Part shown: piece after piece, positions 1 to 11,123 of the stretch | How the letters are laid out: each line of letters opens with the position of its first letter | How positions within the stretch are numbered: position 1 is the first letter of the stretch | Virus record (IMG/VR): IMGVR_UViG_3300037585_005363 | Location: 1-21,489 of that record | Source of the DNA: a virus | DNA length: 21,489 bases | Direction: 5' to 3' (one strand) | The notes under the pieces: generated by a model | The model's input: the letters and a program-made list of their open reading frames with translations, nothing else | Database searches by the model: none | What the model was told of the DNA's origin: nothing | Position numbers and translations under genes: made by a program

Positions 1-74
1 CCTTCGGATTGTAAACACCTGTATATCTCTATGACAGGTAAAACTTTATTATAATCTGTTATTCTTTTACGCAT
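1..74 (-). CDS. queE: QueE-like 7-carboxy-7-deazaguanine synthase, N-terminal fragment
   Basis: Only the first 24 codons lie in the window; the rest runs off the left edge. The ATG sits inside the last codons of queC and overlaps its stop, so the two genes are translationally coupled. Residues 12-25 read LPVIEIYRCLQSEG, which matches the conserved QueE N-terminus (consensus near P-V-x-E-I-F-x-T-L-Q-G-E-G), the strand and substrate-contacting loop just before the radical-SAM cysteine cluster. QueE is a radical-SAM enzyme that converts 6-carboxytetrahydropterin to 7-carboxy-7-deazaguanine (CDG), the substrate of QueC. The radical-SAM CxxxCxxC motif would lie beyond the window, so function rests on this short motif and on the adjacent queC. 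Confidence 0.72.
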   Translation of the reverse strand, partial: MRKRITDYNKVLPVIEIYRCLQSE

Positions 75-843
75 GGCTTGCTAATAATTCTTCTACATGT
101 TTTTTAGCTACTTCCCAACCATCTACATATTCAACTGGATCGGGTCTTCCTAATTTTAAGAATGCCTCTATTCTTTCTACTGATGAAGCTGATTTATAAT
201 CTGATAATCCTTCTGCTGTAGGTTTATATGATGTGTTAGTTCTTTTATAAACTTCATCAAAATCTAAACCTAATACAAAACATGCTGCTTCTCCATCTAC
301 TAATATATCATATTTATCGCCATCTAAAAATGGTGTTATATATGTAACCCTTTCAGCTTCCCAGTTTCCTTGCTTAAATGCTTCATAATCAGCATCTCTA
401 AATTCTTGTCTACAATCAGGATAAATTGCATGATCACCTGCATGAATACCCATTGCTATTTTTACTTCGCAATCTTTTTCATTTGCAATTGATAATGCTG
501 CAGCTTGAATAATTGATGAAAATATTTTATTCCTGTTAGGTACAACAGTGTCTTTCATATTTTCTTCTTCATAATGTCCTTCTGGGACATCTTCTCCTCC
601 TTTTACAAGGTTTGAATTTAATAAACCAACTAATCCTTGTAAAGTAATTCTTTGATATTTTACTGGGTAGCCATTTCTATCCAAATATTCAATTAGTTCT
701 GATGCTCTTTCTAATTCAACATTATGTTTTTGACCATAATCAAAACTTAATGCTGTTACTTCGTAACCTTTGGCTAATAAATGCAATAATACTGTGCTGC
801 TATCCATTCCTCCTGATAATGATAATACTGCTTGTTTTTTCAT
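67..843 (-). CDS. queC: QueC-like 7-cyano-7-deazaguanine synthase, zinc-site variant
   Basis: A 258-aa member of the QueC family, which uses two ATP and ammonia to turn CDG into preQ0 through an amide intermediate (ADG). Visible motifs: the PP-loop SGGMDSST at residues 10-17, SFDYGQKH at 33-40, VPNRNKIF at 101-108, and GDHAIYPDCRQEF at 136-148 (family consensus ends YPDCRPEF). The family normally ends with a four-cysteine zinc site (C-x8/9-C-x2-C-x2-C before VER). Here the aligned positions are S205, D215, S218 and S221, followed by VER (222-224), so all four ligands are replaced with spacing intact. It lies 10 bp downstream of the P-loop ATPase gene and overlaps queE. In a phage, this pathway usually supplies a base for DNA rather than tRNA queuosine. 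Family assignment is firm; the exact product is uncertain. Confidence 0.9.
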   Translation of the reverse strand: MKKQAVLSLSGGMDSSTVLLHLLAKGYEVTALSFDYGQKHNVELERASELIEYLDRNGYPVKYQRITLQGLVGLLNSNLVKGGEDVPEGHYEEENMKDTVVPNRNKIFSSIIQAAALSIANEKDCEVKIAMGIHAGDHAIYPDCRQEFRDADYEAFKQGNWEAERVTYITPFLDGDKYDILVDGEAACFVLGLDFDEVYKRTNTSYKPTAEGLSDYKSASSVERIEAFLKLGRPDPVEYVDGWEVAKKHVEELLASHA

Positions 844-1501: not shown

Positions 1502-1530
1502 AATATACAAAATTATTTCAATATATCCAA
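1502..1530 (-). promoter_or_regulatory. Sigma70-like promoter TTGG-N18-GTATATT
   Basis: Read on the minus strand, TTGG (1530-1527), an 18-nt spacer and GTATATT (1508-1502). As a -35/-10 pair this is TTGGNN, 17 bp, TATATT. It lies over the 3' end of the DpdA-like gene and would drive the ATPase-queC-queE genes. Five other sites in the window share the same layout. Confidence 0.65.
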
Positions 1531-2265
1531 CACATATTCCTGATTTTTTGTCATTATTTTATCATTAATTGAATATTTTTCCTCTAAATCAATTGTCCAA
1601 TCAGGTTTTTTATAATCATATTTATCTTCGAACTTTATTCCATCTATAGCACAATGATAAACTATACTGGTATCAACACCACGTATTAATGATTTTTCTT
1701 CAGCTGAATATTCCTTAAATTCATCTACTGTACTCCAACATCCTAACAGATGTATTTCTTTATTTAATGGATTATTTGCCAATGCATATCTTACAGCTTC
1801 TGGTCTCCCACCAGCAAATTGGGTTTCAGTAACCTTTGGCACAGCTAATACATCTACGTCTTCATATTTACTTAATGTATCCCATGTGCTTTTCCATTCA
1901 TCTGGATCCTTCCCGTGACATACCACTTGTAATTTTGTTTCATCCATCATCAACCATAATTCTACTTTGGATAAAGCTGTGTCAGTTGATTTAATTGTTG
2001 CTGCCCCATCTTTATAAACATCTGGTAATACTATTTCTGATGGTCTTAATTCTTCGGCTGCTTTCATTACAACATCTGATTGCAATGCCTTATTACCTAA
2101 TTCAATCAATGAATTATCTAAAATTACGTATTCTCCATCAGCTAATTTTTGTTTATAAAATTCCGTATATTCTGGATATTTTAATATTAAATGTGTTAAT
2201 GCCATATGATAGTCTGTATTATCATATTTTAGGTCGTGTGTTGGGCAAATAAATGCTACTTTCAT
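1513..2265 (-). CDS. dpdA: DpdA-like (TGT-fold) DNA 7-deazaguanine transglycosylase
   Basis: A 250-aa protein resembling the short phage DpdA proteins, TIM-barrel relatives of tRNA-guanine transglycosylase (TGT) that swap guanine in DNA for a 7-deazaguanine. LDNSLIELG (residues 49-57) sits where TGT has its DSGGFQ loop with the base-binding Asp. VLPDVYKDG (79-87) and HLLGCW (172-177) follow barrel strands. RGVDTS (195-200) matches the strand carrying the nucleophilic Asp of TGT, making D198 the candidate nucleophile. The C-terminal zinc site of tRNA-acting TGTs (CxCxxC...H) is absent, as expected for a DNA-acting relative. The start has a GAAGAGA ribosome binding site and overlaps the end of the DenV-like gene by 4 bp. 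QueC and QueE genes downstream support the call. TGT-like tRNA activity cannot be excluded. Confidence 0.72.
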   Translation of the reverse strand: MKVAFICPTHDLKYDNTDYHMALTHLILKYPEYTEFYKQKLADGEYVILDNSLIELGNKALQSDVVMKAAEELRPSEIVLPDVYKDGAATIKSTDTALSKVELWLMMDETKLQVVCHGKDPDEWKSTWDTLSKYEDVDVLAVPKVTETQFAGGRPEAVRYALANNPLNKEIHLLGCWSTVDEFKEYSAEEKSLIRGVDTSIVYHCAIDGIKFEDKYDYKKPDWTIDLEEKYSINDKIMTKNQEYVLDILK

Positions 2266-2804: not shown

Positions 2805-3185
2805 TTAACATGATACAAAACATTGTTCAAATGGTGGATTTACGTTTCCAATTATTCTTTCCACATATACACATGTATCGCCTTCATGAAATCCTTTTTC
2901 TAATAATAAGGGTAGGCTCATTGGTTTGCACCATGCATAAACTTTATACCCTTCATAATCATTACTAACAAACTCCCATCTAGTATCCCACAACTGTCTA
3001 AATATTCCCTTACGCCTATGATTCTCATGCACCCAAGCATCCATAAATTTGATTGTCTTGTTTGGCTCTATTTGCATGCGAATATGACCAGTACATAATT
3101 GATCTGAATATGATATCCACGAGTGTTGACAATATTGGGTTGTCCCTGTTGGTGGTATATACAAAATTTTGTTTTCGTATTTCAT
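2805..3185 (-). CDS. GNAT-family N-acetyltransferase, small
   Basis: A 126-aa protein with the acetyl-CoA-binding signature of GNAT enzymes: a beta strand IKFMDAWV (45-52), then HENHRRKGIFRQLWD (54-68), containing the R/Q-x-x-G-x-x phosphate-binding loop (RRKGIF) at the start of a helix. A later strand and turn, KVYAWCKPMSLPLLLEKGF, fit the C-terminal half of the fold. The acceptor substrate is unknown. It starts behind an AAAGGAA ribosome binding site, 62 bp downstream of the ribonucleotide reductase stop. Phage GNATs can modify host proteins, toxins or modified bases; nothing here decides which. Confidence 0.65.
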   Translation of the reverse strand: MKYENKILYIPPTGTTQYCQHSWISYSDQLCTGHIRMQIEPNKTIKFMDAWVHENHRRKGIFRQLWDTRWEFVSNDYEGYKVYAWCKPMSLPLLLEKGFHEGDTCVYVERIIGNVNPPFEQCFVSC

Positions 3186-8784: not shown

Positions 8785-9555
8785 TTAATTATTAAATAAT
8801 TCATCAAATGCTGCACCTACATCATCAACTTTTTTAGTATTCTGTGTCGTCGTTGTAGTAGTCGATACAGGTGTTGTATTTGGTTGTGCAGAATTATCTT
8901 CATCAGGGTTTAACCATTCAGCAAGTGATTGCTTAAGATCATCATAAGAACCCTTTTTGAATATATCAAAAATATCTTTTTGACCATTCATAATTGCTTC
9001 TGCTACTTCTTTATTATCAGTAGCTGGAGTCTGATTAGGTTTAATTCTAATCGAAGTAGAAGGGAATTGCTTTCCTGTTTCTTCTGCGGTTTTGAATTCA
9101 ACTGTAATATCTCTACCATTATTCACATCAGTGATATCACCATAATCAGGATCAGCGATAAAGCTTAAAAGTTCTTGGTAAACTGTTTTACCAAATCCCC
9201 ATAATTTTACACCTTCTGATTCTTGCCCTCTTACTAATACAGGAACATAAGTTCTCATTTTAGGTTCAAGTTTTCTTGACATTTGCCAATCATCTCTATT
9301 ACCTGTAGCTTTTAACTTTTCTGCAAATTCTACGATAGGATCTGCTTCACCATGTGTTACTGGTGATAAAAAGTTTTTACCATTAAAGCCATAATGAAAG
9401 TAAAGTTCCAAGAACGGATTGTCTTTGTTATACTGGTAAGGTACGATTCTTACTGTTTGTTTACCTGGTTCAGGTTTCCATAAATTGTTTTGTCTACCTG
9501 TTTGGTTTTGAAGGCCGGATAGCCTTTTGCGGATTGCATCTAAATCTAATGCCAT
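8785..9555 (-). CDS. gp32-like single-stranded DNA-binding protein
   Basis: A 256-aa protein like the gp32 proteins of marine T4-type phages. A basic N-terminal arm (IRKRLSGLQ), expected for cooperative binding, is followed by an OB-fold-like core rich in aromatic residues (LWKPEPGKQTVRIVPY, LELYFHYGF, LWGFGKTVYQELL). A Thr-rich linker (about 225-241) and an acidic tail DDVGAAFDELFNN follow. The protein contains no cysteine, so the His-Cys3 zinc site of T4 gp32 is missing; HGEADP stands near its expected place. It is the first gene of the replication block, has an AAGAGGAA ribosome binding site and a structured, repeat-rich leader that may be an autogenous operator. Confidence 0.8.
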   Translation of the reverse strand: MALDLDAIRKRLSGLQNQTGRQNNLWKPEPGKQTVRIVPYQYNKDNPFLELYFHYGFNGKNFLSPVTHGEADPIVEFAEKLKATGNRDDWQMSRKLEPKMRTYVPVLVRGQESEGVKLWGFGKTVYQELLSFIADPDYGDITDVNNGRDITVEFKTAEETGKQFPSTSIRIKPNQTPATDNKEVAEAIMNGQKDIFDIFKKGSYDDLKQSLAEWLNPDEDNSAQPNTTPVSTTTTTTQNTKKVDDVGAAFDELFNN

Positions 9556-9566
9556 AATTTTTCCTC

Positions 9567-9641
9567 TTAATTGTTAATTGTTAATAAAATGATTTAATTG
9601 TTATTTGTTACTGTATATAAATAGTATACGTAACTAATATT
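9567..9641 (-). promoter_or_regulatory. Leader of the gp32-like gene: hairpin/pseudoknot plus TTAACAA repeats
   Basis: With a start site near 9641 predicted from the promoter at 9648-9676, the leader is about 85 nt. A hairpin at 9607-9634 pairs GTTAC with GTAAC and GTATA with TATAC (one bulged A, loop CTATTTA). The loop bases TATTT can pair with AAATA immediately 3' of the stem, giving an H-type pseudoknot. The rest, down to the ribosome binding site, is unstructured and repeats AACAATTAA-type units (9567-9606). T4 gene 32 mRNA has the same plan: a 5' pseudoknot nucleates cooperative gp32 binding that spreads to the ribosome binding site. The similarity of layout is seen; the function is inferred. 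Confidence 0.5.
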
Positions 9642-9647
9642 ATATAT

Positions 9648-9676
9648 AATATACAAAAAATTTCTTTAGTATCCAA
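9648..9676 (-). promoter_or_regulatory. Sigma70-like promoter TTGG-N18-GTATATT of the replication block
   Basis: Minus-strand TTGG (9676-9673), an 18-nt AT-rich spacer ending in six T, and GTATATT (9654-9648). It lies 1 bp beyond the stop of the endonuclease-like gene and would start the gp32-uvsX-nuclease-helicase transcript. Confidence 0.65.
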
Positions 9677-9677
9677 C

Positions 9678-10259
9678 TTATTCACTAAAACTTTTTTTCC
9701 ATTTTTCTATTTTTTCTACTAATCGATTGTAATATCTATTACTATTCATTTTCAATATCCCAATCCACTTATCTCTTTTCTGATTACAGTCGAATTCTAT
9801 TTTATGCATATTGCTTACCTGTAATTGCCCTTTCCCTAGATTGCCAATCGATAAAGAACTCCATTTTATATGTTCTATATATGCAACGGATATATCAAAA
9901 ATTTCTATACGATCCTTATCAAATTTATATGATACAAATATATAAGCTAAACTATTGTTAGGATCCTTATAATAATCATTTAATCTTTTAATGGATATCA
10001 AATTAGGTCTAGAAAATGACGCATCTAAATTATGTGTTTTAATATCCAATTTTAATAACACTTCCTCTAATTGCAGTTCGACATCTTCAATACTTCTAGG
10101 ACTTGATGGATACCGGGCATTAGGATAATTATCTATTATTAATTGCCTAACATGCGCTTCGACTATATCACCAACACCTCTTTGCATAATACCTTTATCT
10201 ACCCGAATATAATCAGGCATCTTGGTATTTAATAGATATTCTATATTTTCTATTTCCAA
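9678..10259 (-). CDS. PD-(D/E)xK restriction-endonuclease-like nuclease
   Basis: A 193-aa protein with the residue pattern of type II restriction endonucleases: a helix glutamate in GDIVEAHV (E34), then SPRSIEDVEL (D59), a 12-residue interval, and KLDIKTHN (D72, K74). This is the E...D...DxK metal site of PD-(D/E)xK nucleases. The following PNLISIKRL (85-93) and a strand-rich C-terminal half also look like small REases. The start is TTG with AGG a few bases upstream, overlapping the membrane-protein gene by 10 bp; an ATG at 10220 would give a 180-aa form with all motif residues intact. No methyltransferase gene lies nearby. It closes a three-gene operon started at 11129-11188. Nuclease fold likely; sequence specificity unknown. 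Confidence 0.6.
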   Translation of the reverse strand: MEIENIEYLLNTKMPDYIRVDKGIMQRGVGDIVEAHVRQLIIDNYPNARYPSSPRSIEDVELQLEEVLLKLDIKTHNLDASFSRPNLISIKRLNDYYKDPNNSLAYIFVSYKFDKDRIEIFDISVAYIEHIKWSSLSIGNLGKGQLQVSNMHKIEFDCNQKRDKWIGILKMNSNRYYNRLVEKIEKWKKSFSE

Positions 10260-10597
10260 AATACCTGTATTAAAACTAATATCATTGCTAATGATAAGGA
10301 TACATATGTTTTTGCTGTTAATGATTCACCCATAAACCACCATGTACAGAATGCGAATGATATCATACCTAATGCAAATACTACTAGTCTCTGTGGCCAT
10401 AGTAATCCATCGAATCCCGCAAATGCCATTTTTGTAGCTATTATAAACATATAGCTAATTGGCACTCCTAATAACGATAGCCATACTGGGTTCTTTTCAA
10501 ACCATTTCCATACAAATTGTCCATTTATTTGAAACCATACTAATGTCTGTGTTACAAAAAATAACAAGCTGCTTATTAAAATTAATTTTATATTCAT
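10250..10597 (-). CDS. Four-helix integral membrane protein of unknown function
   Basis: A 115-aa protein made almost entirely of four hydrophobic segments at about residues 3-22, 37-55, 71-90 and 96-113, with short polar loops such as NGQFVWKWFEKNP and GLLWPQRL. Its size and topology resemble small multidrug-transporter-like or DMT-like proteins. I believe similar proteins occur in marine myophages, but that is memory, not evidence here. The ATG at 10597 is preferred because it begins 1 nt after the stop of the preceding gene; an in-frame GTG at 10645 would add 16 residues and overlap that gene by 47 bp. The location between an unknown gene and the nuclease-like gene suggests an inner-membrane role linked to that operon. 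Function unknown. Confidence 0.72.
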   Translation of the reverse strand: MNIKLILISSLLFFVTQTLVWFQINGQFVWKWFEKNPVWLSLLGVPISYMFIIATKMAFAGFDGLLWPQRLVVFALGMISFAFCTWWFMGESLTAKTYVSLSLAMILVLIQVFWK

Positions 10598-10598
10598 A

Positions 10599-11123
10599 TT
10601 AAAAGAAAAATTTATGTGTATTTTCAAGATTTTTACTTTCCTCACGAAGCTCTAGCAGAATATCAAATCTCCAGATATCTTCTCTATTTCTCATAAAGAC
10701 ATTTACCATATCATCCATAAATTCATTACATTCTTTATGATAATACCCCTTCTTTAGCCATTTAGTATTAGTCTTATACATATCTTTCCATAATACTAAT
10801 CTTTTATCATAACTATATTCTCTTAATAATGTATTATTATTTACATTACTATCTTCTTTATCATATAAAGACCTAACACCATAAGATTCAATTTCTTCCA
10901 CGATCCTATTTATAGCATTTACATTTTTAGCAGCTTTATAACCCATAATCAATCCTTCACACCAATTCACACAACGCTCCCATCTATCTTCAGAACGATT
11001 ATTATCAAAATAACTTTTTACTTTAGATAATTTTTCTTCCAAGCTAAATTTAGATCCTTTAATAGAAGATCTAACTATCTGCCAATCTGCATTATATTTA
11101 GTAATATCTTTACTTTTTCTCAT
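10599..11123 (-). CDS. Hypothetical protein, 174 aa
   Basis: A 174-aa, charged, mostly helical protein with no family I can recognise. The middle has WERCVNWCEGLIMGYKAAKN (47-66) followed by a basic, aromatic-rich half (YSYDKRLVLWKDMYKTNTKWLKKGYYHKE). There is no signal peptide or membrane segment. It is the first gene of an operon with the membrane protein and the nuclease-like protein, directly under the dual promoter module at 11129-11188. The ATG follows the TATAAATA box by only 5 bp, so transcripts from that box would be leaderless or nearly so, and no clear ribosome binding site is visible. Confidence 0.65.
   Translation of the reverse strand: MRKSKDITKYNADWQIVRSSIKGSKFSLEEKLSKVKSYFDNNRSEDRWERCVNWCEGLIMGYKAAKNVNAINRIVEEIESYGVRSLYDKEDSNVNNNTLLREYSYDKRLVLWKDMYKTNTKWLKKGYYHKECNEFMDDMVNVFMRNREDIWRFDILLELREESKNLENTHKFFF

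Follow-up and report, generated by a model that had tools for sequence, protein, structure and literature searches.

A candidate solitary type II restriction endonuclease in phage contigs that lack the sequence TTTAAA

Type II restriction endonucleases (REases) have been described as rare on bacteriophages (PMC4081073). Burkholderia phage KL3 encodes one such enzyme, gp45 (EcoRII-C), with a methylase that is thought to be protective (PMC3091744), and the cytosine-specific endonucleases II and IV of T4 (denA and denB) have been proposed to act on host DNA and to leave that of the phage intact (PMC6071114). Here we analyse the virus record IMGVR_UViG_3300037585_005363, referred to below as the window (the whole stretch of DNA analysed, 21,489 bases), in which an open reading frame (ORF) at positions 9678-10259 appears to encode a type II REase. 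Such enzymes normally need a methylase; this phage seemingly wields one alone, with its genome cleared of one target word, TTTAAA, and despite an apparent guanine modification. We consider it likely that the solitary REase recognizes TTTAAA, or a sequence within or containing it, and that the phage is immune by the genome-wide removal of its sites. The original prediction for this ORF had also proposed a type II REase and, should the phage DNA carry deazaguanine, had paired it with that base as the protecting modification.

The endonuclease and its bacterial relatives

Direct scans of the REase ORF with Pfam, PHROGs and NCBIfam gave nothing usable, PADLOC returned only a weak generic REase match, and no homologue was found in the phage or plasmid collections searched; the phage sequence alone gave a mere hint of HincII (E 0.58). 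A pattern on HincII-type spacing, D-[IV]-K-T-x-N-7-PN-[LI]-I-S, was run across bacterial genomes and yielded many HincII proteins and, besides these, five proteins that belong to another, shorter family, to which the phage REase aligns at 30-40% identity (40% with the REase of the bacterial restriction-modification (R-M) pair at L013). A combined profile of the phage and bacterial proteins matched HincII with an E-value of 2.7e-4. The phage protein has no match to PF09226, and its bacterial relatives score 15.7-16.9 bits, below the Pfam gathering cut-off of 23.7.

A first structure model, made from four near-identical sequences, was weak (predicted local distance difference test score, pLDDT, of 64), and was replaced by an AlphaFold model from the wider combined alignment with a pLDDT of 88.2 and a predicted template-modelling score (pTM) of 0.85. 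Compared with the PDB by Foldseek, this model matched R.SwaI best (E 4.9e-10, TM 0.80), followed by HincII (E 1.3e-9, TM up to 0.79) and then by NlaIV and EcoRV. D114, D127 and K129 are the active-site residues of HincII, and D59, D72 and K74 of the phage protein align with them. The residues conserved with the bacterial relatives comprise G30-D31, D59, D72, K74, T75, N77, P85-N86 and a loop at about 136-147; D59 is also D in L013, L058 and L061, and D72, K74 and P85-N86 are invariant in alignment A2. The catalytic set first put forward, E34...D59...D72-x-K74, thus holds for D59 and D72-I-K74 but not for E34, which is Q in the bacterial relatives, and the PNLISIKRL said to follow the motif is present in the sequence. 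The features of the gene, by position in the window, are as follows.

9678-10259, minus strand: predicted solitary type II REase of the EcoRV/HincII/SwaI branch, 193 amino acids (aa), TTG start (homology, AlphaFold model, dN/dS)
10083-10085, minus strand: codon of D59, putative first catalytic acid, aligned with HincII D114
10038-10046, minus strand: codons of D72-I73-K74, putative D-x-K catalytic motif, aligned with HincII D127-V-K129
10002-10013, minus strand: codons of S83-R84-P85-N86, which align with HincII Q138-N141 and form a putative DNA-reading loop; no difference among the phage alleles
9819-9854, minus strand: codons of residues 136-147 (LSIGNLGKGQLQ), which form a second such putative loop; no difference among the phage alleles, and strong conservation in the bacterial relatives

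The frame, read from its TTG start, overlaps the end of the upstream gene. The same gene was found at the same position in three further IMG/VR contigs, at 99, 84 and 74% identity; the four REase-bearing contigs form two lineages, the gene adjoins a gp32-like single-stranded DNA-binding protein (SSB) gene in all of them, and all are fragments of 17-27 kb from incomplete genomes. The ratio of nonsynonymous to synonymous substitution rates (dN/dS) was 0.15-0.17 for every pair, that is, the gene is under purifying selection, and the protein is therefore conserved for function. Fold and homology were computed directly, and the identity to R-M nucleases and the SwaI/HincII fold match bear out the original assignment to the type II REases. 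As judged from alignment and model, we regard the ORF as a genuine member of the EcoRV/HincII/SwaI branch with a PD-(D/E)XK core fold, which would be catalytically active.

The computation also placed an N6/N4-type methyltransferase gene directly upstream of the nuclease in L013, L058, L061, G005 (L016) and G738. This group, from Bacteroidales and others (L013, L058, L016/G005 and G738), belongs to the same family as the phage REase, but its nucleases adjoin a methyltransferase whereas the phage copy stands alone. The bacterial proteins nearest to the phage REase serve as nuclease halves in true R-M systems, so that the gene probably either entered the phage lineage without the accompanying methyltransferase or was left alone when that was lost. 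One phylum-wide genome sample added no new family members. The nucleases of L061 and L092 are broken; at L092 (5958-6639, genome G008) there is a degraded R-M relic in which the N-terminus of the methylase is apparently fused in frame to the start of the REase, and the REase is frameshifted.

Neither PF01555 nor PF00145 matched anything in the window or in the three sister contigs, although the same searches were positive in control genomes, and the methylase motif [DNS]PP[FYW] occurred in the REase-bearing contigs only once, in a small acetyltransferase-like ORF (2805-3185). The statement that the window holds no methyltransferase was thus correct, and extends to the sister contigs. Given that the phage contigs are fragments and that the bacterial relatives are conventional pairs, a methyltransferase might be encoded elsewhere in the phage genome. 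We hold this to be quite improbable: in the bacteria the nuclease and methyltransferase genes lie side by side, the neighbours of the phage REase are conserved and are not methylases, and with a methylase the phage would have less need of the complete purge described below.

Absence of TTTAAA from the phage contigs and its depletion in bacterial genomes

1-21489, no strand: no TTTAAA, the predicted target, in the whole window (0 versus 18.0 expected)

A palindrome scan that covered 57.6 kb of pooled REase-bearing sequence found no TTTAAA where 52.4 were expected. None of the four contigs had a single copy (Markov expectations of 18.0, 16.3, 18.0 and 24.1), and among the 4096 hexamers TTTAAA was the only one with a zero count and an expectation above 4.0. 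Synonymous-codon shuffling produced 68.8 ± 6.5 sites over 200 runs, with a minimum of 52, as against 0 observed, and 0 of 54 Phe-Lys pairs were spelled TTT AAA. When the TTTAAA sites of close relatives were aligned to the window, 0 of 62 were kept and 26 read TTTAAG, whereas other A/T hexamers of the relatives were kept at 9-49%. These results show that the absence of TTTAAA is specific and selected. As the phage has no copy of the site at all, its protection is most simply explained by site purging. Two other candidate sites were rejected: ATGCAT, considered because the partner methylases resemble YhdJ, is not avoided (45 versus 36 expected), and GTYRAC, the HincII site, occurs 19 times in REase-bearing phage sequence, which is an indirect test.

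Bacterial genomes with an intact pair were analysed for TTTAAA after the word had already been named from the phage. In G006 it was the most depleted of 64 palindromes (5 versus 185 expected), and it was also scarce in G005 (3 versus 19) and G738 (17 versus 59). The sums for background genomes were 104/118 and 133/161, and no background genome in which more than 8 sites were expected fell below a ratio of about 0.6; with a threshold of 0.3, set once the data were known, depletion was seen in 3 of 4 pair-bearing genomes and in 0 of 13 background genomes (P 0.006). As a control of the method, 89 loci with HincII-family genes were analysed, and the lowest ratios were those of GTCGAC (0.25) and GTTAAC (0.27), with TTTAAA at 0.92. 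The known site of HincII, GTYRAC, includes both words. Recovery of this site by the control indicates that site-avoidance statistics can reveal specificity from sequence. SwaI, the closest fold, cuts ATTTAAAT, which contains TTTAAA. The purge itself was computed directly, as was its reappearance in bacteria that have the same system; the TTTAAA specificity of the enzyme, its part as driver of the purge and its cleavage target in vivo are inferred. Separately, two unexplained avoidances were strong in the sampled contigs of the set L199-L218 / L239-L253, namely of GTCGAC in G004 (3 versus 180) and of CTAG in G008 (ratio 0.0).

According to the explanation we favour, the REase would cut TTTAAA in the infected cell, in host DNA or in the DNA of rival phages or plasmids, at about one site per kb in DNA as AT-rich as that of the phage, and phage DNA would be spared because selection has left no TTTAAA anywhere in the phage genome. 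The enzyme would serve to break down host DNA, to exclude rivals, or to do both.

Several observations weigh against this explanation. The REase-bearing contigs are incomplete and stand for no more than two independent lineages. Near relatives are themselves mildly depleted in TTTAAA overall (84/117), and L122 more so (5/19.9). Moreover, two groups of relatives, L109 with L112 and L119-L121, lack TTTAAA (about 12 expected per group) without a REase in their fragments; the position of the REase gene is there occupied by other genes or has no coverage, and a search for the REase elsewhere in the contigs of 12 relatives found none. Finally, G004, which has an intact pair, shows no depletion (71 versus 82 expected, 0.86). 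Recent acquisition of an R-M system has been given as a cause of missing site avoidance (Rusinov et al., PMC4687349), and the undepleted G004 fits with such an acquisition. The two REase-less groups may carry the enzyme elsewhere, may meet a TTTAAA-cutting host, or may have been selected by REase-bearing rivals; something besides the REase gene may therefore drive the purge in some phages, which makes a host-driven purge the main rival explanation.

In that case, a DraI-like R-M system would be present in the host, or in some common resident of its hosts, and the phage would have lost TTTAAA to evade that system, as a site free of G gains no protection from deazaguanine; the phage REase could then have any specificity. 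Phages commonly avoid host restriction sites, and the two lineages without a visible REase agree with this. Nevertheless, we judge it distinctly unlikely, since most close relatives, whose hosts are probably similar, keep TTTAAA, and since a host-only cause would leave two coincidences: the depletion of TTTAAA in three of the four bacterial genomes with the same REase family and methylase, but not in background genomes, and a closest fold that belongs to a ATTTAAAT cutter. It is also possible, if unlikely, that the REase acts as a weapon against other phages in addition to shredding host DNA, that the absence or presence of TTTAAA alone distinguishes self from non-self, and that L109/L112 and L119-L121 purged the word to survive co-infection. 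A/T-only sites are the one class that is neither protected nor hidden by deazaguanine, and if this were true rivals that use deazaguanine would therefore also be cut.

Probable guanine modification and the slot beside gp32

67-843, minus strand: QueC (PF06508, E 4.2e-39)
1513-2265, minus strand: DpdA-like DNA guanine transglycosylase (tblastn)
1-74, minus strand: start of QueE (24 codons), truncated at the end of the window (translation MRKRITDYNKVLPVIEIYRCLQSE, which matches the complete QueE of sister contig G003)

By tblastn, the DpdA-like protein matched a protein of Flavobacterium phage immuto that is annotated as a DNA guanine transglycosylase, and also Campylobacter phage CP220 and Cellulophaga phage phiST. 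QueD, FolE and a complete QueE are encoded in sister contig G003. The genes of the window (for DpdA, QueC and the beginning of QueE) and these three of G003 together provide DpdA and the preQ0 pathway, and make guanine modification of the phage likely. A deoxynucleoside- or thymidylate-kinase-like gene lies between dpdA and queC (854-1477), in the same place as in G002 and G003.

The modification-restriction pair of the original prediction would require a REase with a G-containing site, from which the deazaguanine bases of the phage protect its DNA. The genes do co-occur, with QueC, DpdA and QueE in the window beside the REase and FolE and QueD in the sister contig, but the fragments of L109 and L115 have DpdA and no REase. 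The one missing word, TTTAAA, contains neither G nor C, and the bacterial relatives indicate the same word. DraI and other enzymes with A/T-only sites digest the deoxyarchaeosine-containing DNA of phage 9g completely (PMC5567051). As the predicted site has no guanine, deazaguanine cannot be the self mark, and we regard self-protection of this kind as highly improbable. The DpdA/QueC trait and the REase do not appear to form a pair but to be two independent traits; deazaguanine would instead protect the phage, independently of the REase, from host enzymes whose sites contain G or C.

The window contains a T4-like replication module with nearly all genes on the minus strand, including those for the gp32-like SSB, UvsX, a gp41-like helicase, ribonucleotide reductase, ligase and polymerase. 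The REase gene occupies a cargo slot bordered by two genes.

10250-10645, minus strand: small membrane-protein gene, which overlaps the REase start; neighbour kept in 14 further relatives
8785-9555, minus strand: gp32-like SSB gene, the other border; position conserved

This slot (9556-10252 in the window; also in L107-L126) holds the REase, a UvdE-like gene or a 166-aa gene of unknown function, or is empty, as in L122. Outside the REase gene, the identity between G002 and G003 is about 99.5% over about 11.8 kb, yet REase nucleotides 11-490 account for 120 of the 183 differences between the two (L188 6353-6925 versus L186 1032-1604). This pattern is that of a gene-sized allele replacement, with a metagenome assembly artefact as a possible source. 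A change of specificity by allele swap is not favoured, as both putative reading loops are identical across the phage alleles and both lineages are without TTTAAA.

The location beside gp32, in a slot that can be empty, and the gene-sized replacement recall segG of T4, a homing gene beside gene 32 (PMC2988022). A selfish, homing-like gene derived from a REase would be compatible with the explanation we favour, yet it seems improbable: the slot also holds cargo other than nucleases, the exchange ends inside the gene without co-converted flanks, and a 6-bp cutter is unspecific for homing. Furthermore, there is usually no TTTAAA close to the slot; within 500 bp it was absent from 9 of 14 relatives, including L122 with its empty slot, and present in 5.

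Elsewhere in the window, a gene at 2262-2744 encodes a pyrimidine-dimer glycosylase like T4 endonuclease V (PF03013). In G003, genes for GroES- and GroEL-like chaperonins lie downstream of a family B polymerase (L187 9715-11629), and in Flavobacterium phage immuto GroEL and DpdA are likewise separated by a few kb, a likeness that hints at a Bacteroidota host.

Comparison with known restriction systems

The closest solved fold is that of R.SwaI (ATTT^AAAT; PDB 5tgx, 5tgq), whose site has a central TTTAAA; the two proteins are 15% identical, SwaI belongs to an R-M system, and the site predicted for the phage enzyme is 6 bp. HincII (GTYRAC; PF09226) has in common with the phage REase the catalytic spacing D-12-D-x-K and the PN loop, but GTYRAC is present in the phage, the phage protein lies below the Pfam cut-off, and it has no methylase partner in its contigs. 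The recognition sequence predicted for the phage enzyme is that of DraI and AhaIII (TTT^AAA). The analysis gives the REase family, hitherto uncharacterised, a predicted specificity, TTTAAA.

Among viral enzymes, gp45 of KL3 and the R-M systems of Chlorella viruses (PMC4081073) are virus-borne type II REases as well, but they come with methyltransferases. A literature search of partial coverage found no phage REase protected by the purging of its own site. T4 denA and denB provide a parallel in the proposed cutting of host DNA, and there self is marked by a modified base, whereas for the phage REase described here self is apparently the absence of the target sequence; the principle by which self and non-self are told apart would thus differ from that of T4.
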